Assembly: GCF_019969845.1 (NCBI RefSeq)
Contig: NZ_JAHXYR010000001.1
Coordinates: forward strand, 310,001-374,000
Direction of reading: 5' to 3'
Source: Sphingobacterium sp. GVS05A
GTDB lineage: Bacteria; Bacteroidota; Bacteroidia; Sphingobacteriales; Sphingobacteriaceae
Length of the DNA: 64,000 bases
Shown piece by piece: positions 16,916 through 62,218 of the stretch. A program made the position numbers and the translations under genes. The first letter of the stretch is position 1, and each line of letters opens with the position of its first letter. The notes under the pieces were generated by a model, which worked only from the letters and a program-made list of their open reading frames with translations, was not told the DNA's origin and searched no databases.

Positions 16916-16950
16916 AGGTCACTCGTCACTGATGAGTGACCTTAGTTTTT
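16916..16950 (+). terminator. Rho-independent terminator after the susD-like gene
   Basis: A perfect 9-bp stem (AGGTCACTC at 16916-16924 with GAGTGACCT at 16934-16942) has a 9-nt loop and is followed by TAGTTTTT. An in-frame GTG at 16936 lies inside this hairpin and cannot sensibly be the start of the next gene. Confidence 0.8.
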
Positions 16951-16968
16951 AAAACTAATTTAAATCTT

Positions 16969-18147
16969 ATGTATAAGTACTTCCAATGTATTGCAGTGAT
17001 CTTCTCACTACAGTTTGTAGCCTTGCACTGTAATGCACAACAGGATGAAAAAGTTAGCTTGACACATTTACCTTATATCCAAGGCTTGACAGATCATTCG
17101 GTGTCCATTATATGGACGACTAATCGCCCAGCAACAGGTTGGGTAGAATTGGCGCCAGATGATTCGAGTCATTTTTATCATATTGAACGATCCAAATATT
17201 ATGCTGCAGCTTATGGTTTTAAAAAAGTCGGGACTGTTCACCAAGTGAATTTAAATGGATTAAAACCAGGAACAAAATACCGTTATCGAGTATATAGCCA
17301 AGAGGTAACTAAACACGTTGGTGTCAATGTGGAATACGGAAAAATTGTAGCAACCAATGTATATCGACAGGAACCGTTGGCATTTACTACGCTCGGACCG
17401 GCTAAAGTAACCCGCTTCGCTGTGGTTAATGATATTCATGGTCGTAATGATGTGTTGAATAAATTACTTGATCTCTCTGATCTCCCTAAACAGGATTTTA
17501 TTGTTTTTAATGGTGATATGGTCGATAATTTATTGAGTGAACAACAGATGTTTGACGGTTTTATGGATACGGCAATCAAACGATTTGCAAGTGAGAAACC
17601 TATGTTCTACTCAAGAGGGAACCATGAAACCCGAGGACCATTTGCCATTACCTATCCGCAATACTTCCCGACACCGACAGGAAAGCTCTATTATCAATTT
17701 AAGCACGGTGAAACTGCTTTTATCGTGTTGGATTGTGGTGAGGATAACCCAGATTCTGATATGGAATACAGTGGCATCGTGGAGATGGATAATTATCGTA
17801 CAGAACAAGCAAAATGGTTGGAGGAAGCCATGGAAAAACCGGATTATAAAGATGCAAAATATAAGATAATCATATGTCATATGCCACCATTTGGCGGTTG
17901 GCATGGCGAACAGGAGATTCTGGATAAATTTGTTCCTATTCTAAATAGATCCGGTGCGCAAATTATGTTGTGTGGACATTTGCATAGACATATTATTAAA
18001 CAGGTGTCTGAGAAGGTCAATTTTCCTGTTATCGTGAACTCCAATAATAATTTGCTTAAAGTAGATTTAGCTGCTAAAGGGTCTTTTAAAATTATTGACC
18101 AACAGGGGAAACTTATTGATGAAGTAACTATAACACCCCTACGCTAA
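16969..18147 (+). CDS. Secreted metallophosphoesterase with N-terminal purple-acid-phosphatase-like domain
   Basis: About 392 residues from the ATG at 16969, chosen because it gives a signal peptide (MYKYFQCIAVIFSLQFVALH) and avoids an upstream GTG inside a terminator. Residues ~25-140 form an FN3-like N-terminal domain as in purple acid phosphatases (HSVSIIWTTNRPATGWVEL, LKPGTKYRYRVYS). The calcineurin-like catalytic domain has all metal-binding motifs: NDIHGRND, NGDMVDN, RGNHET, CHMPP and CGHLHRH. It should hydrolyse phosphate esters outside the cytoplasm. It follows SusC/SusD behind a terminator, which suggests the locus handles a phosphate-bearing substrate, with the phosphatase possibly expressed by read-through. 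Confidence 0.9.
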   Translation: MYKYFQCIAVIFSLQFVALHCNAQQDEKVSLTHLPYIQGLTDHSVSIIWTTNRPATGWVELAPDDSSHFYHIERSKYYAAAYGFKKVGTVHQVNLNGLKPGTKYRYRVYSQEVTKHVGVNVEYGKIVATNVYRQEPLAFTTLGPAKVTRFAVVNDIHGRNDVLNKLLDLSDLPKQDFIVFNGDMVDNLLSEQQMFDGFMDTAIKRFASEKPMFYSRGNHETRGPFAITYPQYFPTPTGKLYYQFKHGETAFIVLDCGEDNPDSDMEYSGIVEMDNYRTEQAKWLEEAMEKPDYKDAKYKIIICHMPPFGGWHGEQEILDKFVPILNRSGAQIMLCGHLHRHIIKQVSEKVNFPVIVNSNNNLLKVDLAAKGSFKIIDQQGKLIDEVTITPLR

Positions 18148-18197: not shown

Positions 18198-18437
18198 CCG
18201 ATGAACCCCAGGTTTTAATGGTAATTTTTTTTCTTTTCCAACCGTTCTTGTCTTGTTTTTCATTGACAGAAAGTCAGTTATTGATACAGCGTTTTCCCCT
18301 CTTTTCTAATTGATCTAGATTACCCCATTTATAACCTATTATTAAGTTATGGAGGTAATATTTGTATTCGTTTTTGTGCGTTTTTTTATTTATTTATTGA
18401 GTTATATTGCGCTATATAATTTAGATTTATTAAAAAT

Positions 18438-18472
18438 AATTTGAATAAATGCTTTTTAATAATCTATATTTG
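18438..18472 (+). promoter_or_regulatory. Promoter of the TonB receptor/DUF4876/peroxidase operon
   Basis: A -33 element (AATTTG, 18438-18443) is spaced 21 bp from a perfect -7 octamer TATATTTG (18465-18472), matching the Bacteroidetes sigma-ABfr pattern TTTG-N19-21-TAnnTTTG. Transcription should start near 18479, about 50 bp upstream of the ATG at 18531. No Fur-like palindrome was found in it. Confidence 0.65.
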
Positions 18473-18530
18473 CATTTGTTTAGAACGATTTTAAATAAAA
18501 GCACTTCTGGGTGCGTTTTTGTTCGTACTT

Positions 18531-21242
18531 ATGAAAAAGACTTTCTTTATATTAATTCTTGTTTTCTGTAGCATTATAGTTCATGCTCAGCATACAGCTA
18601 TTGAGGGAAAAGTGTTAGATGAAAAGAGAAGGCCTCTAAGTGGCGCAACTGTCTCCATTAATTCATTTGATCTCACTAGTGAGACGGATGCAAAAGGCGA
18701 TTTTAATTTGATTATTCCAGTCAAAAACTATAGTGATAGTGTTTTATTATCCGTAAGTTATGTAGGGAAAAAAATGATTGAGTTGTGGGTTGATGTAAGA
18801 AAAAGAAAAGAGAATTTGGATTTTATACTTCGGGACAATAGTTTAACCTTAGATGAGATTAATGTAAACCAGATATTTAAACAAAATAAAAATTCCATTT
18901 CTTCCATTGTGTTTGATGAGGAGGCTATAGAAAGGGTTCAGGCGTTTAGTCTGATGGATGTGTTGAACACATTGCCAGGCAAGCAAATGACAGCTCCTAA
19001 TATCAATGCACCGCAGACTTTGAATCTGAGAAACACCCTTGATGAGAGCAATAGTCTTAATAATTCACTAGGGATACCTATAATAATAGATGGGGTGCGG
19101 CTTTCAAATGATGCTAATATGCAATCGCGGCCCGTAGGACAACGGGGAATGGCGGGGTCTGTGCTTCCTGCTGTAACCAGTGGAAACGCTGCAGATGTAC
19201 CATTTAGGGGAGTGGATTTAAGAGAAATACCTGTAGAGTCTATTGAGAAAATTGAGGTAATTCAAGGTGTAGCTTCTGCAGAACATGGCGAATTGACTGA
19301 TGGTGCAATTTTAATCGAACGAAAAACAGGAAATTCGCCACTGCACTTTTCAACAAATATAAATGATGGCTCTCGTAATTATTCACTCAATAAAGGGTTT
19401 GGTCTTCCTAAAAATTGGGGGGGGATAGCTACAGACCTAAACTACGCTATTTCGAACTCTAACCCCCAAGATAAGGTGCAGGAATATAAACGCTATGGTG
19501 GTTCATTGCGTTGGAATACGGTGGCGTCACGTAAGCTTCGCAATAAGTTAAGCTTAGATTTTAACATGAGAATAGATGATGCAAAACAGGATCCGGATGA
19601 TAATTCAAGAAGAAAATATTATTCAAAAGAAATCGGTTTCCGCTTTTCAAACACAACCCAATTGAACTATAGTACACGATTTTTTGACGAAATCAATTTC
19701 ATGCTTTCTTATTCTATCCGCAAGCAAGAGAGCTTTGCTCAATGGCTATTAAATCAAGGCAACAAACCTTATACTGCAAAAGATACCACAGGCATATACG
19801 AGGGAATATTGCTTAATTCGCAATATCTCGCTGAGGAAGAGATTATCGGAAAACCTATAACAGCAAGCACAAGTTTAAAATTTACAAAAAGGTTTCAAAT
19901 AGGTAAGACTTTTCACAGTGTATTGTATGGGTTTAATGGGAGTTATGCAAACAACGGTGGGCGAGGGATTATTTCTGACCCGGATAGACCGCGTTTTATC
20001 AATTTTAACAACCAAAATATTAGACCTTATTCTTTTGAGCTTAATCCTGCTTTAATCAATACGGGTATATACATTACAGATAACTTTCATTATAAGCTGT
20101 TTGGTAAAAAAATTAACAGCAATTTTGGTGTTCGTTTTGATAATCAAAATGGAAGCACCAGTTTTCAGCCACGATTAAATACAAGGATTGTTTTAGATAA
20201 GAGGTGGGCTTTAAGTGCTGCCTTTGGAGTTGCAACCAAATCTCCAACTTTAGCGCATCGCTATCCATCACCTTCCTGGATAGATGTTCCACTGATTATT
20301 GCACAGAACTCCCAGAGTTCCTTATATTTAGTGTATACAGAGAAATTTATTACTAAGAATGAAAACTTAAAATCTAGTAAGTCTGAGAGCGCTGAATTTA
20401 ATATAGAATTCAAAAATCACTGGATTACATCCCGCATCAATTCTTATTATAAAAATAACAGCAATGGTTTCAATTCCGTCAAGGTCTACAAACCATTTCA
20501 TTTGCCTGTATTTGATTACCATTATAATGAGAGCCTAAATCAAATCGTATATCAGGAGACTGGAAGATACATTGATTATTATGACAAGTCATACAATAAG
20601 ATTGAAAATTTTAAAAACTCCTATACCTACGGTTTTGATTGGTCCTTAGCCTTTAAGGAAATCAAATTTATCCGTACGAGCTTTTCCACCAGCACTTCGT
20701 ATATTTTATCTGAACAAAACGATAAGATACTGGAAGCAATAGATTTATCCTCTCCAGTTCAAATCAATGGGCAGCCAATTTCTTATCTGTTGTATCAACT
20801 CAGCAACCAAGGGAAACGATATGTACTGACAAGTAAGTTAAACACTACCACGCACATTCCCACTATCGGATTTGTCATCATGACCAATACAGATATTTTT
20901 TGGGAGAATCGTTATAAACGGAACTATAATGACAATTTTCAAAAACCGGTAGGTTATTTGGATGCTAATATGAAACAAGTGTTAATAAACAACGATTTGG
21001 CGTCCTCTCTTCCTATTCGTGGGCTAGAATTGTTCGATGGCCAGCAACGTATTATTTATATGAATTTCTCAATGTCAGTCGCCAAGGAAATCAGCAAAAA
21101 GATCCGCATTGCTGTGACAGCCTACAATACCTTTAATGTGCAACCCACTAGTTCGTATCGGGATCCCAATACAAATCAGGACGTAATTGTCACTTACAAT
21201 AGTCCTTTAAGCATTACAGGCGGAATATCAATTAAACTTTAA
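18531..21242 (+). CDS. TonB-dependent outer-membrane receptor (partner of DUF4876 lipoprotein)
   Basis: About 903 residues from the ATG at 18531, which gives a clean signal peptide (MKKTFFILILVFCSIIVHAQ); an in-frame TTG four codons earlier is less likely. A carboxypeptidase-regulatory-like domain (IEGKVLDEKRRPLSGATVSI) precedes the plug, seen in the IIIDGVRLSND and EVIQGVASAEHGELTDGAIL segments; a barrel fills the rest. It is not of the SusC type: it lacks the SusC SVLKDASAA signature, is shorter and has no SusD. It is the first of four co-directional genes with gaps of 15, 7 and 37 bp. Ligand unknown; the di-haem enzyme at the end of the operon makes a metal or metal chelate a reasonable guess. 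Confidence 0.9.
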   Translation: MKKTFFILILVFCSIIVHAQHTAIEGKVLDEKRRPLSGATVSINSFDLTSETDAKGDFNLIIPVKNYSDSVLLSVSYVGKKMIELWVDVRKRKENLDFILRDNSLTLDEINVNQIFKQNKNSISSIVFDEEAIERVQAFSLMDVLNTLPGKQMTAPNINAPQTLNLRNTLDESNSLNNSLGIPIIIDGVRLSNDANMQSRPVGQRGMAGSVLPAVTSGNAADVPFRGVDLREIPVESIEKIEVIQGVASAEHGELTDGAILIERKTGNSPLHFSTNINDGSRNYSLNKGFGLPKNWGGIATDLNYAISNSNPQDKVQEYKRYGGSLRWNTVASRKLRNKLSLDFNMRIDDAKQDPDDNSRRKYYSKEIGFRFSNTTQLNYSTRFFDEINFMLSYSIRKQESFAQWLLNQGNKPYTAKDTTGIYEGILLNSQYLAEEEIIGKPITASTSLKFTKRFQIGKTFHSVLYGFNGSYANNGGRGIISDPDRPRFINFNNQNIRPYSFELNPALINTGIYITDNFHYKLFGKKINSNFGVRFDNQNGSTSFQPRLNTRIVLDKRWALSAAFGVATKSPTLAHRYPSPSWIDVPLIIAQNSQSSLYLVYTEKFITKNENLKSSKSESAEFNIEFKNHWITSRINSYYKNNSNGFNSVKVYKPFHLPVFDYHYNESLNQIVYQETGRYIDYYDKSYNKIENFKNSYTYGFDWSLAFKEIKFIRTSFSTSTSYILSEQNDKILEAIDLSSPVQINGQPISYLLYQLSNQGKRYVLTSKLNTTTHIPTIGFVIMTNTDIFWENRYKRNYNDNFQKPVGYLDANMKQVLINNDLASSLPIRGLELFDGQQRIIYMNFSMSVAKEISKKIRIAVTAYNTFNVQPTSSYRDPNTNQDVIVTYNSPLSITGGISIKL

Positions 21243-21257
21243 CAAATACTATATACT

Positions 21258-22622
21258 ATGAAACAGAATTATATTCTACTATTTTTCTCCTTAATACTAG
21301 CCTTATTTGGAGGCTGTAAAAAAGACATTGACGAAGTACAGCCAATAAACGTGAACGTACAGCTAACGGTAAACCCTGAGGAGGTTTGGTTTGAGGTACC
21401 TTACGACAAGGCCGAAATTACGTTGATAAATAAAGGTAATAGCAGTTCTTACAAAATTCAAGCAGATGCAAAAGGTAAAATTGCATTGAATAATATTGCT
21501 CCAGGTAATTATAGTATCAATGTCTCGTTGGCAATCTCAGCAGAAGAATATACTAAATTGACGGGTGTAAATCGCACATCTATTTTTTATCTGAACTATG
21601 CTTTGGCTGATAAAGCATTGTTTGCTAATGAGGACTTTAATATTCGCTTAGTTACCAGTGAACCTATTGGCGGTTTTGTTATTAAACAGATCTATTATGC
21701 TGGATCAGATACCAAGGATGCAGCTCTTAACCGGGATAATTTTATTGAGATTTATAATAACTCGGATGAAATGTTGTATGCGGATAGCTTACTTGTGGTA
21801 TTAGCATATGGAAAACCGAATAATAAAACAGACGAATATTCCCTAAGCAACAATCAGTATGATTGGAGCAAATCTATCAATATGACAGTGTCTAATAATG
21901 TAAATGAAGATTATGTCTATGCCAAAGGAATATTCATGATTCCAAGTGATGGGACGGGTAAAAAATATCCTGTCGAATCGGGGAAAAGTATAATTATCGC
22001 TGGTTCGGCCTTAAATCACGCGGGTTCATATACCGACAACAACGGGAAAATAATCGGTGCTCAGAGGCCTGAACTTACAGTGGATTTGAGTAAAGCTGAT
22101 TTTGAAGTCTGGTTGTATCCTTACGAACAGAAAATTCAGCCTGGGCGAACGATATTCGCGAATGACGTAGATAATCCATCCGTTACAAACTTAGAGGTTT
22201 TTATTGCCCTAAGTATGCGTGATATGTATTTTCCGCCACAGGCTAGAGAATCTTTTGTATTGATGAAAGTCGATGGAACCTTTGATTTAAATAATATTCC
22301 GTCATTTGCTATTCCAACTGTAAAATCTGTTACAACGAGTACTGTGCGTTATGCTCAAATGCCGGCAAGGTTTATCTTAGATGCTGTTGAAATTCAGGAC
22401 GCCGTTGTAGCTGATCAAATTCCACGTCGTTTACCACAAAAATTTGATGCAGGAGCAATATCTGTACCTGGGGGAGCTTACTCTAGCCAGTCCGTCGTCC
22501 GTAGGACCGAAAGGAAAATTGGGAATAGACGTATTCTTAAAGATACAAACAATTCGTCAAATGATTTTGGTGTGCTACAACGTGCCAATCCAACCAAAAC
22601 AGACGCATCATTTATAGATTAG
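21258..22622 (+). CDS. DUF4876-type lipoprotein
   Basis: 454 residues. The signal and lipobox are clear (LILALFGGC, Cys20), so it is a lipoprotein, probably on the outer membrane. The N-terminal ~110 residues form a beta domain (NVQLTVNPEEVW, APGNYSINVSLAIS), and the rest shows the DUF4876 pattern with IKQIYYAGSDTK, DNFIEIYNNSDEMLYADSL and FMIPSDGTGKKYPVESGKS, reminiscent of lamin-tail-like beta sandwiches. The function of the family is unknown. It sits between the receptor and a second barrel, 15 bp after the first and 7 bp before the second, so it may be the surface binding subunit in the place SusD would occupy. Family identification is by memory of the motif pattern. Confidence 0.75.
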   Translation: MKQNYILLFFSLILALFGGCKKDIDEVQPINVNVQLTVNPEEVWFEVPYDKAEITLINKGNSSSYKIQADAKGKIALNNIAPGNYSINVSLAISAEEYTKLTGVNRTSIFYLNYALADKALFANEDFNIRLVTSEPIGGFVIKQIYYAGSDTKDAALNRDNFIEIYNNSDEMLYADSLLVVLAYGKPNNKTDEYSLSNNQYDWSKSINMTVSNNVNEDYVYAKGIFMIPSDGTGKKYPVESGKSIIIAGSALNHAGSYTDNNGKIIGAQRPELTVDLSKADFEVWLYPYEQKIQPGRTIFANDVDNPSVTNLEVFIALSMRDMYFPPQARESFVLMKVDGTFDLNNIPSFAIPTVKSVTTSTVRYAQMPARFILDAVEIQDAVVADQIPRRLPQKFDAGAISVPGGAYSSQSVVRRTERKIGNRRILKDTNNSSNDFGVLQRANPTKTDASFID

Positions 22623-22629
22623 AGTCCAT

Positions 22630-24180
22630 ATGCGGAACATTTTTGCTACGATATTTTTGGTTTCCCTTTTTACTTTGAGCAGAGCTCAAAGTAAAAAGGA
22701 TTCTGTTTATAGTTATACCATTGATCATCATTTAGTTGAACGCAGTCTTTTGAGACCCGCTTTTCTTCAAAGAGACTCATTGATGTCTTATGGTGATGTT
22801 CGAGTTGCTTATCAAATGAATAAGGGAGGATTTCGAAAGGCCCAACAAGCCTACAACGGTGGGACAACAAGTTTTCAAGCCAATGGATTCAATCGTTTGG
22901 GAAAGTTCTTATTGGGAGCAAAATTTACGTTCAACTCCATTCGTGAAGATAGTTTGGCAAATAGCCTTCGTTCTGGATTAGAAGATTTAAGCCCTTATTA
23001 TCCTTACGCAAATAAAAGTGGTGACTATCAGCGTCAAAATTATCAGCTAAATGCTTCACTCGGATATGAATTAGCTCATTCAGTACAGCCATTTCTCCAA
23101 GTGGATTACCATCGGCATTGGAGTGCAGGTACAGTGGATCCGCGCTTAAAATCTAATAGATTTACTTTGAAAGTCAAACCTGGTGTTTCCTTAAATTTTT
23201 CGAAAAGTACATTGGGGCTATATGGAATAATTGGGCGTGCAGATGAAAATGTTTCTTTGTTATACAAAAACATGGATTTTCAATCTTCAAATCTGTATCC
23301 AGATCGAATGTATTATATGAATTATGGATACGGGACGGCACGTCAAAAAGATACGACAAGAGTTAATTTTAAATACGATAACTATAAAGGGGTAGGGATT
23401 CAGTACCTAAAAAAGCTTTATAGCTGGCATACCAAAACAGAAATTGAATATCAACAATATCACAATACAAACCAAAATTATTCTAGGAAGTCTGTTCTTT
23501 ATAGTGGCCCTTTGGCTATTTATGATCAAAATACCATTAAATTTTTCGTAGATGCAGTCAAATATAATGGTGATCAGGGGCAGCAATTATTGATTTTCGA
23601 TGGCGAATATAATAAAGGTGTTGATGGCAACAAATTGACTACGGGTAGCCTAAATAAAGTCAATTATAAAGTTAGCACTCTTTCCCTTACAGGACAATAT
23701 GTTAAGCTTTGGCATAGACATCATCAGCTAGCCAAGGAATTAGGTTTTGTTGTTACCTACTATACGGAAAATAGAAAAGATCTCTTGCAGGCGATCGACT
23801 TTGAAGTGGGACAAATGCGTGTTGAGCCATCTCTAAGATTATATTTGCAAAAAAGCAGCACGAAACTTATACAATTTGCATTTGCACCTTATGCGACTAT
23901 TCCGACAGAAACCACATTGGAATATAGTCCTTTATCCATAAACACCTTTATTCAAAACGTTGTTTTTTGGGACTATTACTATTATAAGACCCAATACTTA
24001 GGTGCGAAATTTGGTGTAGAATATAAGGATCGCTTTTGGGGAAACGACCTTGCATTTTATGCAAAGTTAGATCTCCGAAAATCTTCAGGTACTGTCGAAT
24101 TAAAAGATGATATAAAACCTAAATTTCTTTCAACTGGAAGTAGAACGAATATGGAAATTGGAATTCGGCTTTCTTTATAA
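22630..24180 (+). CDS. Outer-membrane beta-barrel protein of unknown function (DUF6850-like)
   Basis: 516 residues with a signal peptide (FATIFLVSLFTLSRAQ). The remainder is rich in alternating polar/aromatic strands (YQRQNYQLNASLGYELAH, TKTEIEYQQYHNTNQNY) and ends in an amphipathic strand (MEIGIRLSL), consistent with an outer-membrane barrel of roughly 16-20 strands. No plug domain is visible. It resembles the uncharacterised barrel family that accompanies DUF4876 lipoproteins in Bacteroidetes. Its stop lies 37 bp before the start of the di-haem peroxidase. Confidence 0.65.
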   Translation: MRNIFATIFLVSLFTLSRAQSKKDSVYSYTIDHHLVERSLLRPAFLQRDSLMSYGDVRVAYQMNKGGFRKAQQAYNGGTTSFQANGFNRLGKFLLGAKFTFNSIREDSLANSLRSGLEDLSPYYPYANKSGDYQRQNYQLNASLGYELAHSVQPFLQVDYHRHWSAGTVDPRLKSNRFTLKVKPGVSLNFSKSTLGLYGIIGRADENVSLLYKNMDFQSSNLYPDRMYYMNYGYGTARQKDTTRVNFKYDNYKGVGIQYLKKLYSWHTKTEIEYQQYHNTNQNYSRKSVLYSGPLAIYDQNTIKFFVDAVKYNGDQGQQLLIFDGEYNKGVDGNKLTTGSLNKVNYKVSTLSLTGQYVKLWHRHHQLAKELGFVVTYYTENRKDLLQAIDFEVGQMRVEPSLRLYLQKSSTKLIQFAFAPYATIPTETTLEYSPLSINTFIQNVVFWDYYYYKTQYLGAKFGVEYKDRFWGNDLAFYAKLDLRKSSGTVELKDDIKPKFLSTGSRTNMEIGIRLSL

Positions 24181-24217
24181 ATTATTTTTGATAATAATCG
24201 TAATAAAAAAACAGGTA

Positions 24218-25348
24218 ATGAAAAAACATTTTGCAGTATTGGTCAGTATCTTTGGACTTGTTGGTTTACTATCTATGAAAGATCAACAAAAAGCATTGTA
24301 TGAAGAACTGCAGTTGCTTTATCGAAGACCGATAAGCGAGTGGCCTAAACCGACGATTGATGCTGGTGTCAGCTGGAAGGAATTTACGTCACTGCCCAAG
24401 GTTGATACAAGTTATTTTTCTTTGATGGAAAAGCCGGATGTCAAGTTGGGAAAATATCTTTTCTTTGATCCGATTCTGTCTGGCAGCAATCAGATCTCCT
24501 GTAGCAGCTGTCACAATCCCCAGACATCATGGGCTGATAAATTGATGGTTCCGGTTGGCAATGATCATTTGGAGGGGACACGTAATACACCATCACTACT
24601 GAATGTGTATGCGCGGAAAGAATTGTTCTGGGATGGAAGATCCAAGTCGCTGGAAGAGCAGGCTTTGGGGCCTATTGAAGCACATCATGAAATGGACATG
24701 GAATTGACCAAATTGATTCCAAAATTGAAAGCTATCCCGGCCTATAACAAGCTGTTTCTAGCAGCCTTTGGAGAGGAAGATTATTCCATGCCAGAGGTTT
24801 TAAAGGCTTTAGGTGCTTTTCAACGGACTTTAACAAGTAGACGTAGTCGCTTTGACGAGTTTTTGGATGGTAATTATAAGGTGTTGTCCGAGCAAGAGGT
24901 ACGTGGACTGCATCTCTTCCGCACAAAAGCAAGATGTATGAATTGTCACAATGGTCAGTTTTTAACGGACGACACTTATCATAATATAGGATTGACTTAT
25001 TACAAACGTAAATATCAAGACTTGGGCCGGTATGAAATTACCAAAGATCCAGCTGACGTAGGGCGTTTTAGGACCCCTTCGCTGCGGGACGTGATGAATA
25101 CCGATCCATGGATGCACAATGGATTATTCTGGAATATGACCGGATTGCTGAACATGTATAACAGTGGGATGCAAATGAACTCTGCGAAGCCAGAACAGAA
25201 GGCCAAAGATCCACTTTATCCAGTTACAGATCCTTTAATGCAACCTTTGAACCTTAGTAAAGAGGAAATAAAAGATATCGAAGCATTTTTACATGCCATC
25301 ACAGCAACTTCCTATCGGATGCGACGTCCTGAAAGCTTGCCGCGGTAG
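24218..25348 (+). CDS. Di-haem cytochrome-c peroxidase / MauG-like protein
   Basis: About 376 residues from the ATG at 24218, which gives a short signal peptide (MKKHFAVLVSIFGLVGLLS); an in-frame ATG at 24158 would overlap the barrel gene. Two c-type haem sites are present: CSSCH (C95, C98, H99) and CMNCH (C240, C243, H244). Family landmarks include LGKYLFFDPILSGSNQISC, the ELFWDGRSKSLEEQALGPIE segment, FRTPSLRDV and DPWMHNGLF. Classical members reduce H2O2 in the periplasm; MauG and MbnH instead oxidise protein side chains. Being last in a receptor-lipoprotein-barrel operon, this copy may act on one of those partners rather than in general peroxide defence (inference). Confidence 0.92.
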   Translation: MKKHFAVLVSIFGLVGLLSMKDQQKALYEELQLLYRRPISEWPKPTIDAGVSWKEFTSLPKVDTSYFSLMEKPDVKLGKYLFFDPILSGSNQISCSSCHNPQTSWADKLMVPVGNDHLEGTRNTPSLLNVYARKELFWDGRSKSLEEQALGPIEAHHEMDMELTKLIPKLKAIPAYNKLFLAAFGEEDYSMPEVLKALGAFQRTLTSRRSRFDEFLDGNYKVLSEQEVRGLHLFRTKARCMNCHNGQFLTDDTYHNIGLTYYKRKYQDLGRYEITKDPADVGRFRTPSLRDVMNTDPWMHNGLFWNMTGLLNMYNSGMQMNSAKPEQKAKDPLYPVTDPLMQPLNLSKEEIKDIEAFLHAITATSYRMRRPESLPR

Positions 25349-25446
25349 TGTCTACAAATGCCTATTTTTACTTTGTTTGGTGTTTTTTGTAACATACTTA
25401 CAGTGAGTTGTATATGTGGTTAAAAAGGCGTTTAATTTATTTTTCG

Positions 25447-25454
25447 TACCTTTG
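25447..25454 (+). promoter_or_regulatory. -7 promoter box (TACCTTTG) of the putative structured RNA
   Basis: The octamer TACCTTTG fits TAnnTTTG and would place the transcription start near 25461, exactly where the closing helix of the predicted RNA begins. A TTTG at the ideal -33 distance is not evident. Confidence 0.5.
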
Positions 25455-25460
25455 TGCTGT

Positions 25461-25765
25461 CAAAAGACAGAATGGCGTGAGTTTATTCCGCTAGGACTGG
25501 AGCCTTTTTGAGGCACAGTCGAAGTTGTTCGTTGTACTTGTTGAAGTATATTTTGGAGCTGTGTTTAGCATAGCTCATCTTTAAAAGATTAGTTTCTTTT
25601 TCATCGTTGCTCTTATCGAACCGAGAGTAAAGCGTGTTAGTTAATAAGTAGATTGAACTGAAGTTTAAAATTTCGATCAAACGAATTCAACTGTAGGGAT
25701 ATTTTATGTGAATGAAAACTACGTAGGTGTGCAGCCTTAGTGGCTTACTCATGCTCTTTTGTTTT
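25461..25765 (+). ncRNA. Candidate structured RNA or long leader upstream of the betaine transporter
   Basis: About 300 non-coding bases whose ends pair over long range: CAAAAG (25461-25466) with CTTTTG (25756-25761), GCGTGAGT (25475-25482) with ACTCATGC (25747-25754, near position), and CCGCTAGG (25488-25495) with CCTTAGTGG with a one-base bulge (25735-25743). Inside are local hairpins: GACTG..CAGTC enclosing GCCT/AGGC (25495-25520), TACTT-GTTG-AAGTA (25535-25548), an 8-bp GAGCTGTG/CATAGCTC stem (25556-25576) and ATCTT/AAGAT (25577-25589). A -7 box sits just upstream. It lacks the RNase P, tmRNA and SRP landmarks. It could be a free RNA ended by the T-rich tail (CTTTTGTTTTATTT) or a riboswitch-like leader of the operon starting 25 bp later. 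Confidence 0.5.
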
Positions 25766-25789
25766 ATTTATGTTTAAAAAAATTAAAGA

Positions 25790-27031
25790 ATGGATAAAAC
25801 TAGAAAGGTAAAGGTAAAAGTTGAAGATTTGACCATTGTTTTTGGTAAACAGAAAAAACAAGCTTTGAAATTATTGGACGAGGGGTTTTCGAAGAAAGAA
25901 ATATTAGAAAAAACTGCTTGTACAATAGGAATTAACAAAGCAAATTTCGAAATCTATGAAGGTGAGTTTTTTGTGATCATGGGGCTTTCAGGAAGTGGTA
26001 AATCGACCTTACTTCGTTGTTTAAACAGATTGAATGAGCCTACCTCAGGAAAGGTATTTGTCAATGACGAAGATATTACCGGGAAAAATAATAAAGAGCT
26101 TTTGGAAGTGCGCAGGACCGAAATGAGTATGGTCTTTCAAAAATTCGGCTTGCTGCCACACCATACTGTGCTGAGTAATGCTGCATTTGGACTGGAAATA
26201 AGAGGTGAGGACAAAGAATCACGTGAGGCAAAAGCCCAAAAGGCTCTTGATATTGTTGGATTGAATGGCTTTGAACAGCAGCTACCGGCTCAACTTTCCG
26301 GCGGGATGCAGCAACGTGTTGGATTGGCTCGAGCTTTGGCCAATGATCCCGAAGTGTTACTGATGGATGAAGCGTTTTCAGCACTGGACCCTCTGATCAA
26401 AGCCGAAATGCAAGATCAGCTGCTTGAACTGCAGGACACGCTACAGAAAACAATTGTCTTTATTACACATGATCTTGACGAAGCCATCAAATTGGGCGAT
26501 CGTATCGTCATTATGAAGGACGGGGTAATTGAACAGATTGGTACCGCAGAGGATATCCTGACAAACCCTGCAAGTGATTATGTAAAAGCTTTTGTCGAAA
26601 AAGTGGATCGGAAAGCAATTATTACCGCAGGCTCCCTGATGTTTGAAAAACCAACAGTTGTACGATTCAAAAAAGACGGTCCCGAAGGTGCTCTGCGCAA
26701 AATGCGCGCTTCTGGTATAGATATATTACCTGTAGTGGACGTGCATGATCATTTTTTTGGTTTTGTCCATATCAATGAAGTGATCCAGTCAGCCAAACGT
26801 AAAGAAGCGACCGTCGAGGCCATCATTCACGCAAATGTTCCCACCGTATCAAAAGAAGTAACTGTGGAGGAAATGTTACCTCTGATTTCAGAAGTGCGAT
26901 CGCCCATCGCTGTGGTCAATGAACACAACCGTTTATTGGGGATCGTAACCCAGACTTCATTAATCATTGAGGCGACCAAATACAACGAAGAGGAAATCAT
27001 AGAATTAAAAGAGCAAGCAAATAATCAATAG
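25790..27031 (+). CDS. proV: Glycine betaine/proline ABC transporter, ATP-binding subunit with CBS domains
   Basis: 413 residues, the size of ProV/OpuAA. Walker A is GLSGSGKST, the Q-loop is MVFQKFGLLPH, the ABC signature is LSGGMQQR and Walker B is VLLMDEAFSALD. A substrate-group N-terminal extension (FGKQKKQALKLLDEGFSKKE) is typical of quaternary-amine transporters. The C-terminal ~130 residues form two CBS domains, which in OpuA sense ionic strength and second messengers. It energises uptake of compatible solutes and is followed 2 bp later by the permease gene. Preceded by a putative structured RNA that may regulate it. Confidence 0.95.
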   Translation: MDKTRKVKVKVEDLTIVFGKQKKQALKLLDEGFSKKEILEKTACTIGINKANFEIYEGEFFVIMGLSGSGKSTLLRCLNRLNEPTSGKVFVNDEDITGKNNKELLEVRRTEMSMVFQKFGLLPHHTVLSNAAFGLEIRGEDKESREAKAQKALDIVGLNGFEQQLPAQLSGGMQQRVGLARALANDPEVLLMDEAFSALDPLIKAEMQDQLLELQDTLQKTIVFITHDLDEAIKLGDRIVIMKDGVIEQIGTAEDILTNPASDYVKAFVEKVDRKAIITAGSLMFEKPTVVRFKKDGPEGALRKMRASGIDILPVVDVHDHFFGFVHINEVIQSAKRKEATVEAIIHANVPTVSKEVTVEEMLPLISEVRSPIAVVNEHNRLLGIVTQTSLIIEATKYNEEEIIELKEQANNQ

Positions 27032-29112: not shown

Positions 29113-29132
29113 GTGCTTATTTGTATTAGATA

Positions 29133-29151
29133 ATTAAGAATCATTCTAAAT
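29133..29151. promoter_or_regulatory. Fur-like palindromic operator
   Basis: ATTAAGAATCATTCTAAAT is a 9-1-9 inverted repeat with a single mismatch between arms, similar to the ATTTAGAATnATTCTAAAT type elements associated with iron regulation in Bacteroidetes. It lies between the divergent ABC-ATPase fragment (start 29112) and AraC gene (start 29258), next to a siderophore-interacting protein. The identity of the binding regulator is inferred. Confidence 0.5.
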
Positions 29152-29166
29152 AAATTGTAATTTAGC

Positions 29167-59449: not shown

Positions 59450-60397
59450 TTAGCTTAAATGCTGGTCCAGCCATTGATCAATGAACTGAAAGACTTCTTC
59501 CCTGCAATCTTCGTTGAGTATTTCGTGACGCATGCCTTCGTACAGTTTCACAGTAATATCGGTCTGTCCCTGCAGACTTAATTGGGTGGCGGTTTGTTCC
59601 ACTCCCTTTCCGAAATCACCAATAGGGTCATCCTGTCCACTAATAAATAATAGGGGTAAACCTTTCGGAATGCGTTTTGTCAGTTCTTTATCTGTCGCGC
59701 GTAGCGATAAACTCAATACGGTATAAAAGCCATTGTTCGTAAATAAACCACCACATAAAGGATCTTCGATAAAAGCAATGCGATTCGCTTTGTTGACACT
59801 CAGCCAATTGCTATTATTTTGATTGGGTTCATTTTTAAATCCGGCATTATTACGCTGATCAAATATGCTGTTAATCAATCGGCTTCGTTTTTTAGGTGCA
59901 AAGGAGTTGAGAACAGCCAACAGCATACGAAAAGCGGTGGATCCCTTTTGTCGCGCGCCCGTCCCAACGATTATTGCCCCTTTAAAACGATCTCCTGCTT
60001 GTTGTAAAGCACAGCGGGTAACAAAAGATCCCATTGAATGCCCCAAGATAAAATGCGGTTGATTGGGATAGCCTTGTTGCAAGACAGAGCTCATTGTTAA
60101 CGCATCCTGTACCAATTGTTCCGCTGGATCGGATTGTTGAAAATACCCTAATCCATCTGTATTAACGGCCGTCTTCCCATGCCCCAACTGATCATAGCTT
60201 AGTACAGCAAAACCACGGTCAGCCAGATGATTGGCAAGCATTTGATACCGGCCACTATGTTCCTGCATGCCATGAACAATCAATATTGTCGCTAATACCT
60301 TTTGGTTCACAGGTTCAAATATACTGTAGAAGAGTTTATGGCTTGGTTTACCTTCAAAAGAACTTATTGGAAAAAGATTGGACGATACCGTATTCAT
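59450..60397 (-). CDS. Alpha/beta hydrolase, monoacylglycerol lipase-like
   Basis: 315 residues. The nucleophile elbow is GHSMGSF, the oxyanion-hole motif is VHGMQEHSGRY (HGMxEHxxRY type of lysophospholipase/monoacylglycerol lipase), the catalytic Asp is in FISGQDDPIGDF and the His in YEGMRHEILNE. The FNLSYDQLGHG-like segment VLSYDQLGHGKT also matches. No signal peptide, so cytoplasmic. It is divergent from the ankyrin gene and seems unrelated to the neighbouring CAZyme operon. Substrate: a long-chain monoacylglycerol or related ester. Confidence 0.92.
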   Translation of the reverse strand: MNTVSSNLFPISSFEGKPSHKLFYSIFEPVNQKVLATILIVHGMQEHSGRYQMLANHLADRGFAVLSYDQLGHGKTAVNTDGLGYFQQSDPAEQLVQDALTMSSVLQQGYPNQPHFILGHSMGSFVTRCALQQAGDRFKGAIIVGTGARQKGSTAFRMLLAVLNSFAPKKRSRLINSIFDQRNNAGFKNEPNQNNSNWLSVNKANRIAFIEDPLCGGLFTNNGFYTVLSLSLRATDKELTKRIPKGLPLLFISGQDDPIGDFGKGVEQTATQLSLQGQTDITVKLYEGMRHEILNEDCREEVFQFIDQWLDQHLS

Positions 60398-60552: not shown

Positions 60553-60706
60553 CAGTAATTTAGAATTAATTTAAATAAGCGATTAGTTCTTCGGTTTAAT
60601 ATTTGTATTCAGCTGAGGTTAGCAAGAGCCATACGATATTCACAAACAGCTAGCGGGAATAGCGATTGTTCATGATGACTTCATTATCAATAAAAAATAC
60701 GTTCTA

Positions 60707-62218
60707 ATGAAAAAGACACTTTTAGCAGCTTTACTTTTAGCGGCATCTTATGCCCAAGCACAAACAAACTCATTGATGAATGGTGAGTTTTGGAAAGGTA
60801 AACCTACTTTGGCTACAGTTAAGGAGGAAATTACAAAAGGAAATAGCCCTTCACAACCTAATTCGGCATCTTTTGATCCCGTAACGATGGCAATCCTAAA
60901 TGGAGCTCCGACAGATGTTGTCAAATTCATGATTGAACAAGAAGGGAACAGTGTAACGAAGAAAACACACCATAGCCGGAGCTATCTGCATTGGGCGGCT
61001 TCAAGTGGTAATACTGAGTTGGTGGATTATCTAATTGCAAAAGGTTCCGATGTGAACTACCAAGATAGCCATGGCTACCCGATCGTTGCCTACGCTGCGT
61101 CGACAGGAAATACCAATACCGCTGTTTATGATGCTTTATTTAAAGCTGGAGTAGACCCAAAACAAAAATATGAAGGCGGAGCCACGTTAATGATGCTGGC
61201 GGCTTCTGCTGATAAAGATCTTGCATTGACAGATTACTTTATCAAGAAGGGACTTTCTATACAAGATAAAGATGAATACGGCCGTGTCGTTACGGATTAT
61301 GCAGCGAAATTAGGTAACATGCCATTGGTCGAAAAGTTTATCGCCCGTGGTGTAAAACCGACAAACAATGCGTTGTTTTTTGCTACACAGGGATCCAGAC
61401 AAGCATCAAATGGACTGGAGACCTATACCTATTTGGTAGAGAAACTGAAATTAGATCCTAAGGCCATCAATAAAGACGGTGCGACTTTATTGCATGCGCT
61501 TGTACGCCGCCCAGATATGGCGGTGATCAATTACTTTTTAAATAAGGGAGTTGATGTTGCAAAAGCGGATAACGAAGGCAATACAGCGCTTATGGTTGCG
61601 GCGAATGGCAAAGACGCAAAATTAGTGGAACTGCTACTTTCCAAAGCAAAGAATGTGAATGCTGTGAATGAGAAAGGTGAATCTGCATTGACCAAGGCGG
61701 TGGGTAATGGTACAGCTGAGGTCGCAGCGCTCTTGATTAAAAATGGTGCCGATACCAAATTATTGGACAAGGATGGTAACAACTTAGCTGTTTATTGGTT
61801 TAATTCTTTCAAAGAAGCTCCGCAGGGTGGACGCCCACAACAGGCTGCGCAATCCAATAGCCCTCAGGTAGATGATTTTAAAGAAAAATTAGGTGTGCTT
61901 AAAGCAGGAGGATTGGATGTCGTAGCACCACAGAAAAATGGTAGTACACTCTATCACTTGGCTGTAGCCAAGGAAAATTCAAACTTGATCCAGAAAGCAA
62001 GCGAATTGGGGGTAGACATCAATGCACAGGATAAAGAAGGAACAACTGCACTACATAAAGCAGCTTTGATTGCCAAAGACGATTCATTATTGAAAACACT
62101 GGTCGCTTTGGGAGCAAAAAAAGAACTGAAAACCGAATTTGATGAAACCGCATACGATTTGGCCAAAGAAAATGACTTTTTGTCAAAAGGAAATGTACAG
62201 TTGGACTTTTTAAAATAA
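60707..62218 (+). CDS. Exported ankyrin-repeat protein
   Basis: 503 residues with a signal peptide ([15 protein letters not shown]). From ~50 onward it consists of tandem ankyrin repeats: [97 protein letters not shown] and [20 protein letters not shown]. These scaffold protein-protein contacts; here it would be in the periplasm. It is 4 bp before the DUF2271 gene and in line with a PepSY-flavodoxin reductase, so it may assemble or inhibit that redox system. The exact partner is unknown. Confidence 0.87.

Follow-up and report, generated by a model that had tools for sequence, protein, structure and literature searches.

A conserved outer-membrane module of TonB receptor, DUF4876 lipoprotein and DUF6850 barrel in Bacteroidota, joined in one clade by a di-haem peroxidase

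The window analysed here is a stretch of 64,000 nucleotides from Sphingobacterium sp. GVS05A (contig NZ_JAHXYR010000001.1, positions 310,001 to 374,000). The subject is an operon within it, at 18438-25348, that encodes a TonB-dependent receptor, a DUF4876 lipoprotein, a DUF6850 outer-membrane barrel and a di-haem peroxidase of the cytochrome c peroxidase (CCP)/MauG type. A first-pass annotation, made from the sequence alone, read these as four tightly spaced genes behind one upstream promoter. Rechecking the open reading frames and their spacing gives the same picture, with gaps of 15 bp between receptor and DUF4876, 7 bp between DUF4876 and DUF6850, and 37 bp between DUF6850 and peroxidase, behind a promoter that follows the Bacteroidota consensus. 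A search of 25330-25800 gave no intrinsic terminator, so the 3' end of the operon is placed by the 441 bp gap alone. The features are these:

18418..18438, no strand assigned: another match to the operator-like palindrome, AATTTAGATTTATTAAAAATA, lying upstream of the -33 element, from sequence; in the relatives L003 and L108 these letters have 3 mismatches to the palindrome core
18440..18472, plus strand: Bacteroidota-type promoter, from sequence (TTTG at 18440-18443, 21 bp, TATATTTG at 18465-18472)
18477..18497, no strand assigned: operator-like palindrome, TGTTTAGAACGATTTTAAATA, spanning the point where transcription is expected to start, one mismatch to TRTTTAGA-N5-TCTAAAYA
18531..21242, plus strand: TonB-dependent receptor with CarbopepD_reg_2 domain and plug (ATG 18531, alternative TTG 18519)
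21258..22622, plus strand: DUF4876 lipoprotein (lipobox Cys20 21315-21317, W203 21864-21866, H254 22017-22019)
22630..24180, plus strand: DUF6850 outer-membrane barrel with 18 predicted strands and without a plug (Pfam, structure model)
24218..25348, plus strand: di-haem CCP/MauG-type peroxidase (ATG 24218, alternative TTG 24158)
24500-24514 and 24935-24949, plus strand: CxxCH sites of the peroxidase, with the inter-haem Trp at 24629-24631 and the axial Tyr at 25157-25159

The plug of the receptor matches Pfam PF07715 (38.3 bits, E 2.1e-9, cut-off 23.9), and the receptor barrel model PF00593 gives no match at E<=0.01. DUF4876 (PF16215) scores 87.2 bits (E 1.9e-24, curated cut-off 27.9) and DUF6850 (PF21012) 237.3 bits (E 5e-70, curated cut-off 27); each occurs once in the genome, the one adjoining the other. 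The model of DUF6850 has 18 strands, starting at residue 53, and lacks a plug domain, so the plugless second barrel of the first-pass annotation holds as a prediction. The peroxidase carries a CCP_MauG domain (PF03150, 175.4 bits, E 1.5e-51, cut-off 25.6) and two CxxCH haem sites, also as first read. In the literature and sources searched, no function is assigned to DUF4876, DUF6850 or the clade of peroxidases to which this one belongs.

If the four genes stood together by chance, their order should not recur. The mapping covered 107 stretches, made up of the window, L003, 45 drawn from a phylum sample and 60 from the genus. Of the 110 DUF4876 genes in them, 101 are preceded by a receptor gene and followed by DUF6850, all on one strand. 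Together with the genus-wide linkage described below, this rules out chance adjacency; the order is conserved across Bacteroidota and not unique to one genome. The nine other rows were left out of the alignments and trees. L066 supplies two of them, as tandem copies; four (L091, L118, L119, L122) probably have a barrel frame that overlaps beyond the adjacency rule; L105 is at a contig end; and L102 and L140 have odd maps. L003 and L108 belong to the same record and are each counted, and two L098 rows have one common receptor. L003 is the near-identical locus of Sphingobacterium detergens (97% in the barrel). In the phylum sample of 395 Bacteroidota genomes, DUF4876 is found in 37 and DUF6850 in 47 at E<=0.001 (37 over the cut-off), and a Pfam match to DUF6850 accompanies DUF4876 in 35 of its 37 genomes. 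The spread of DUF4876 is patchy, with 12 of 395 genomes in the class draw and 73 of 93 in the genus.

The core of the module is thus receptor, DUF4876 and DUF6850, and the peroxidase is a clade-specific addition. Among the 101 core loci it is the next gene in 35 (counting L074, although one small frame intervenes); in 5 it flanks the receptor in divergent orientation, and in 61 it is non-adjacent. The four-gene machine first supposed stands as far as its three-gene core is concerned, but the peroxidase is a fourth partner in 40 of the 101 loci.

Other genes are found in the fourth place. Several peroxidase-free loci, for example L133:708-2960, have a protein of about 745 residues there; one that was scanned has HEAT repeats. 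Following genes include such HEAT-repeat proteins (L133, L089), a YCF48/BNR protein (L089) and an M16 protease (L066), and an ATP-binding cassette (ABC) ATPase/DUF4857 set lies downstream in the Bacteroides-like L063. At several other loci the upstream gene looks FecR-like by eye. In two Sphingobacterium genomes (L253, L254) the genes run on one strand from DUF6850 through a protein of some 520 residues to DUF4876 and two small proteins. Beyond these come what looks by eye like a SusC/SusD pair, more lipoprotein-like genes and a weakly clostripain-like protein, and the run closes with a peroxidase 67% identical to that of the window. At L252:6247-8971 just DUF6850 and the peroxidase remain, and transposase-like frames (by eye) take the place of receptor and DUF4876.

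The peroxidase behaves as a dedicated partner. In the 93 genomes of the genus, peroxidases at least 55% identical to the window's have a DUF4876 gene no more than 6 kb away in 50 of 56 cases, and those of 36-45% identity in 22 of 51. Conversely, 73 of 115 DUF4876 genes of the genus have a peroxidase within 6 kb, the distance being taken from first-base coordinates; the 115 are what is left of 117 matches after one split match was merged and one below the cut-off dropped, and the 60 newly fetched genus regions cover about half of the matches. On a quick tree of the receptors, presence of the peroxidase requires 6 changes, as against a mean of 31.5-31.6 with shuffled labels, and all 40 peroxidase loci fall in one 47-row set with 7 loci that have none. 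The branch carrying this set has a support of 90 and is not starred. A second quick tree, of the operon peroxidases with other CCPs of 14 genomes, used 30 of 31 full CCP matches, 8 of them merged as copies of operon rows and one G324 match without a locus omitted. It has one starred clade of 44 rows, 40 from operons and 4 unlinked, separate from the MbnH-type enzymes sampled and from a third type. The unlinked members come one each from G002, G359, G253 and G324, the last of which also has an operon copy. The first three genomes carry DUF4876 loci with the tryptophan W203 (L069, L071, L075) and no adjacent peroxidase.

What does the module import? The first-pass annotation took it to be neither SusCD nor a classical siderophore system. 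The first half of this stands, since the DUF4876 lipoprotein has no match to the SusD family in Pfam, which rules out identity with SusCD, but the operon does not stand apart from iron acquisition, to which it has two ties. One tie is the palindrome over the expected transcription start. Core sites with up to 3 mismatches were counted in the 250 bases upstream: 28 of the 40 peroxidase loci have them where shuffles predict 2.8, and so do 16 of the other 61 against a prediction of 3.6. This enrichment is partly circular because the motif was derived from the same regions. Genome-wide, sites with up to 2 mismatches number 41, a modest excess over the 26 of the reversed pattern. Both limits count against a regulatory reading of the motif. 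Of the 10 genomic sites with at most one mismatch, 7 stand directly before uptake or regulatory genes: four TonB receptors (the operon's included), HmuY, an AraC gene beside a haem transporter and an extracytoplasmic function (ECF) sigma gene. The other 3 are at the end of PurN, at a 109-residue frame and in the gap between LpxR and CcmE. A cluster on contig C29 has four sites amid genes for haem oxygenase, HmuY, a TonB receptor, a periplasmic binding protein, a FecCD permease and an ATPase. The sharing of the motif with HmuY and TonB receptor genes suggests that the operon belongs to an iron regulon of the Fur/DtxR type.

The other tie comes from published homologues. Under iron starvation PG1019-22 of Porphyromonas gingivalis rises 20.8-214.5-fold and BT3625-33 of Bacteroides thetaiotaomicron, a locus with PepSY-TM proteins, an ABC ATPase and DUF4857, 36.7-128-fold (PMC10434189). 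A P. gingivalis DUF4876 gene has a log fold change of -5.42 in a comparison of hemin levels (PMC10470040), and PG1019 and PG1020 are tabulated in a study of PG_0686 (PMC10101095). Because the palindrome is common to HmuY, TonB receptor and ECF sigma genes, and because these homologues are induced by iron starvation, the module is likely an importer of an iron- or haem-bearing ligand.

Three further palindromes, each with 2 mismatches, may be recorded. One, at G000:C31:175027-175047 (L209), stands before a gene for a cytochrome with six CxxCH motifs, which presumably opens an operon for alternative complex III. Another, at 29132-29152 of the window, precedes a gene of 329 residues that is followed by one for a siderophore-interacting protein (SIP), and the third, at 60557-60577, lies between the divergent genes 59450-60397 (minus strand) and 60707-62218 (plus strand).

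What kind of enzyme is the peroxidase? Its best whole-protein match in the PDB is the bacterial CCP 4aal (MacA, 1.9e-46), its longest coverage is with BthA (6e1c, 2.5e-35), and MauG follows at 1.7e-22; the C-terminal part is closest to BthA and MauG. Tyr314, counted from the ATG, aligns with Y294 of MauG, which I take to be the low-spin haem ligand, with a tyrosine of BthA and with a methionine of MacA. Of the 40 operon enzymes, 37 have tyrosine at this position and 3 show an alignment gap; the inter-haem tryptophan and distal glutamate are present in all 40. An axial Tyr and an inter-haem Trp have established roles in the MauG and BthA enzymes. By this alignment of axial ligands, the kind of check that the first-pass annotation had called for, the enzyme is predicted to have the His/Tyr haem ligation of the MauG type. 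The histidine of the bacterial CCP loop, aligned with that of MacA, is Asn in the window's enzyme. An always-open haem is not certain, because among nine operon rows compared, the window's included, four (L111, L074, L082, L072) have His here.

Several known systems resemble the operon in part. The loci PG1019-22, BT1933-39 and BT3625-33 are likewise DUF4876/TonB loci of the iron-starvation type; unlike the window operon, they have no di-haem peroxidase named in the accessible parts of their published description. In MopE/SACCP and CorA/CorB of methanotrophs, a di-haem peroxidase gene likewise adjoins that of its partner, a surface protein in which Trp becomes kynurenine at a metal site; that SACCP and CorB perform the oxidation is the authors' inference, and the pair is repressed by copper, with no importer genes like those of the window operon described in the part of the paper at hand (PMC3912023). 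In MbnP/MbnH a di-haem enzyme and its protein partner go together, frequently in the neighbourhood of a TonB transporter (PMC3621798), and the window operon similarly has a di-haem enzyme with a TonB receptor and a potential partner. Membership in MbnP/MbnH is rejected: DUF4876 has no MbnP domain (PF20243) at E<=0.01, the enzyme falls below the cut-off of the MbnH model TIGR04039, and the MbnH types sampled, one of them the enzyme next to an MbnP-family gene of this genome, are in a separate starred clade of the quick tree. The same genome has its own MbnP-family/di-haem enzyme pair elsewhere (L211:3071-5136, on G000:C33), preceded by a 662-residue gene that looks by eye like an outer-membrane receptor. 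The enzyme of that pair has a lipobox by a simple pattern, which none of the operon peroxidases has. MauG and BthA share with the window's enzyme the CCP_MauG domain and, by alignment, the axial Tyr and inter-haem Trp. With SusCD the operon shares the combination of TonB receptor and outer-membrane lipoprotein, as it presumably does with the XusABC importers.

If the peroxidase modifies a partner, a residue in that partner might betray it. No Trp conserved at 80% in the peroxidase loci was found in any of the three partner proteins across the 101 loci, nor does any single aromatic residue in them mark every peroxidase locus. Cys20, Tyr85, Tyr174 and His254 of DUF4876 are conserved irrespective of the peroxidase. 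Tyr346 of DUF6850 is biased towards peroxidase loci (88% versus 10%), and the strand order of the barrel model suggests that it lies near the outer side. The residue of most interest is W203 of DUF4876, the sole invariant Trp in 56 close homologues, which sits in a GQ(F/Y)DWSKS-type loop at 27 of 40 peroxidase loci. Trp occupies its column at only 4 of the 61 loci without an adjacent peroxidase, with the strict motif at L069 and L071, a variant at L075 and neither at L132, and in 3 of these 4 the genome has a peroxidase of the operon clade that is not linked to the locus.

I propose, tentatively and with the balance of probability lying somewhat against even this, that the single most likely role of the peroxidase in the window's subgroup is maturation of the lipoprotein by oxidation at W203. 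The proposal starts from four observations made here: the gene order, the peroxidase clade, the shared operator-like motif and the Tyr at the MauG axial position. As iron falls, a Fur- or DtxR-like repressor would leave the operator and the operon would be expressed. The DUF4876 lipoprotein would sit on the TonB receptor and capture the ligand, while the DUF6850 barrel would provide a scaffold or a second channel. Using H2O2, the peroxidase would oxidise W203, much as has been proposed for SACCP and CorB on MopE and CorA, and the oxidised residue would complete a ligand- or metal-binding site. A bolder form of the idea, which I consider unlikely, would make the system an iron or haem counterpart of MopE/CorA, in which W203 becomes a kynurenine-like ligand and iron capture throughout aerobic Bacteroidota is under the control of peroxide or oxygen.

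A good deal weighs against maturation at W203. The residue is missing at 13 of 40 peroxidase loci, with Tyr in a shorter loop at 11, Pro at one and a gap at one. As a trait it arose within a single clade, with 2 changes and 4 independent pairs, of which just 1 is informative, and its correlation with the peroxidase lacks power once relatedness is counted. In the 12-row subgroup without W203 (a 13th row, L085, was excluded from this comparison), most of the conserved aromatics are also kept by L063, L064 and L068. These three loci retain the module and come from G238 and G230, two of the three Bacteroides-like genomes (family f11, so labelled from gene content) that were checked, with G394, and that yielded no CCP_MauG gene. 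If the lipoprotein is surface-exposed, as it may be, a periplasmic enzyme would not reach it after export. The enzyme scores 218.1 bits with the MauG equivalog model TIGR03791, which needs 443.85, a point of difference from MauG, and 207.9 with TIGR04039, which needs 362.85; the enzyme adjoining the genome's MbnP-family gene is also under the latter cut-off, at 206.1. Because W203 is missing in 13 of 40 and the subgroup's aromatics are kept where no CCP_MauG gene was found, modification of DUF4876 by the peroxidase, one of the two targets suggested in the first-pass annotation, survives as a candidate for the window's subgroup alone.

An alternative, on the whole rather unlikely, is that the module imports iron or haem and the peroxidase acts on what is imported, for example oxidising Fe(II) or an organic chelator with H2O2, other enzymes perhaps doing the redox step where it is absent. 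This would fit the place of the peroxidase outside the universal core, the want of an aromatic residue common to all peroxidase loci, and the genes that accompany other members, DUF4857 and the ABC ATPase at L063 and the PepSY-TM proteins, ABC ATPase and DUF4857 reported at BT3625-33. It fits less well that the characterised MauG and MbnH enzymes modify proteins, as is inferred for CorB and SACCP too (PMC3912023), and that the Trp loop is present in all 27 peroxidase rows of the window's subgroup. More doubtful is the view that the enzyme is a bacterial CCP scavenging H2O2 at the site of iron entry, as a guard against Fenton chemistry. The best whole-protein matches in the PDB are indeed bacterial CCPs, and the want of a CCP_MauG gene in the three Bacteroides-like genomes would fit loss in anaerobes, if that is how they live. 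Yet the position held by Met in MacA and Tyr294 in MauG is Tyr in the window's enzyme, and a general scavenger is hardly to be expected to stay with one transport locus throughout a phylum. It is improbable that iron limitation is just a signal and the cargo is copper, manganese or an organic compound: the MopE, CorA and MbnP precedents concern copper (PMC3912023, PMC3621798), and the motif is also found near hemA and a multihaem cytochrome gene, neither for uptake, but it stands before HmuY and TonB receptors in the genome, and homologues are induced by iron starvation (PMC10434189).

DUF4876, DUF6850 and the peroxidase clade emerge as parts of one transport module, apparently tied to iron starvation. 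Since the parts belong together, they make a testable unit as regards the ligand, the role of the predicted 18-strand plugless barrel and maturation by the enzyme. If maturation at W203 is true, amino-acid ligands made by enzymes would extend from the handling of copper to the uptake of iron or haem.

Just upstream of the operon, at 16936-18147, lies a gene for a calcineurin-like phosphoesterase with a purple-acid-phosphatase N-domain, directly preceded by what looks by eye like a SusC/SusD-like pair.

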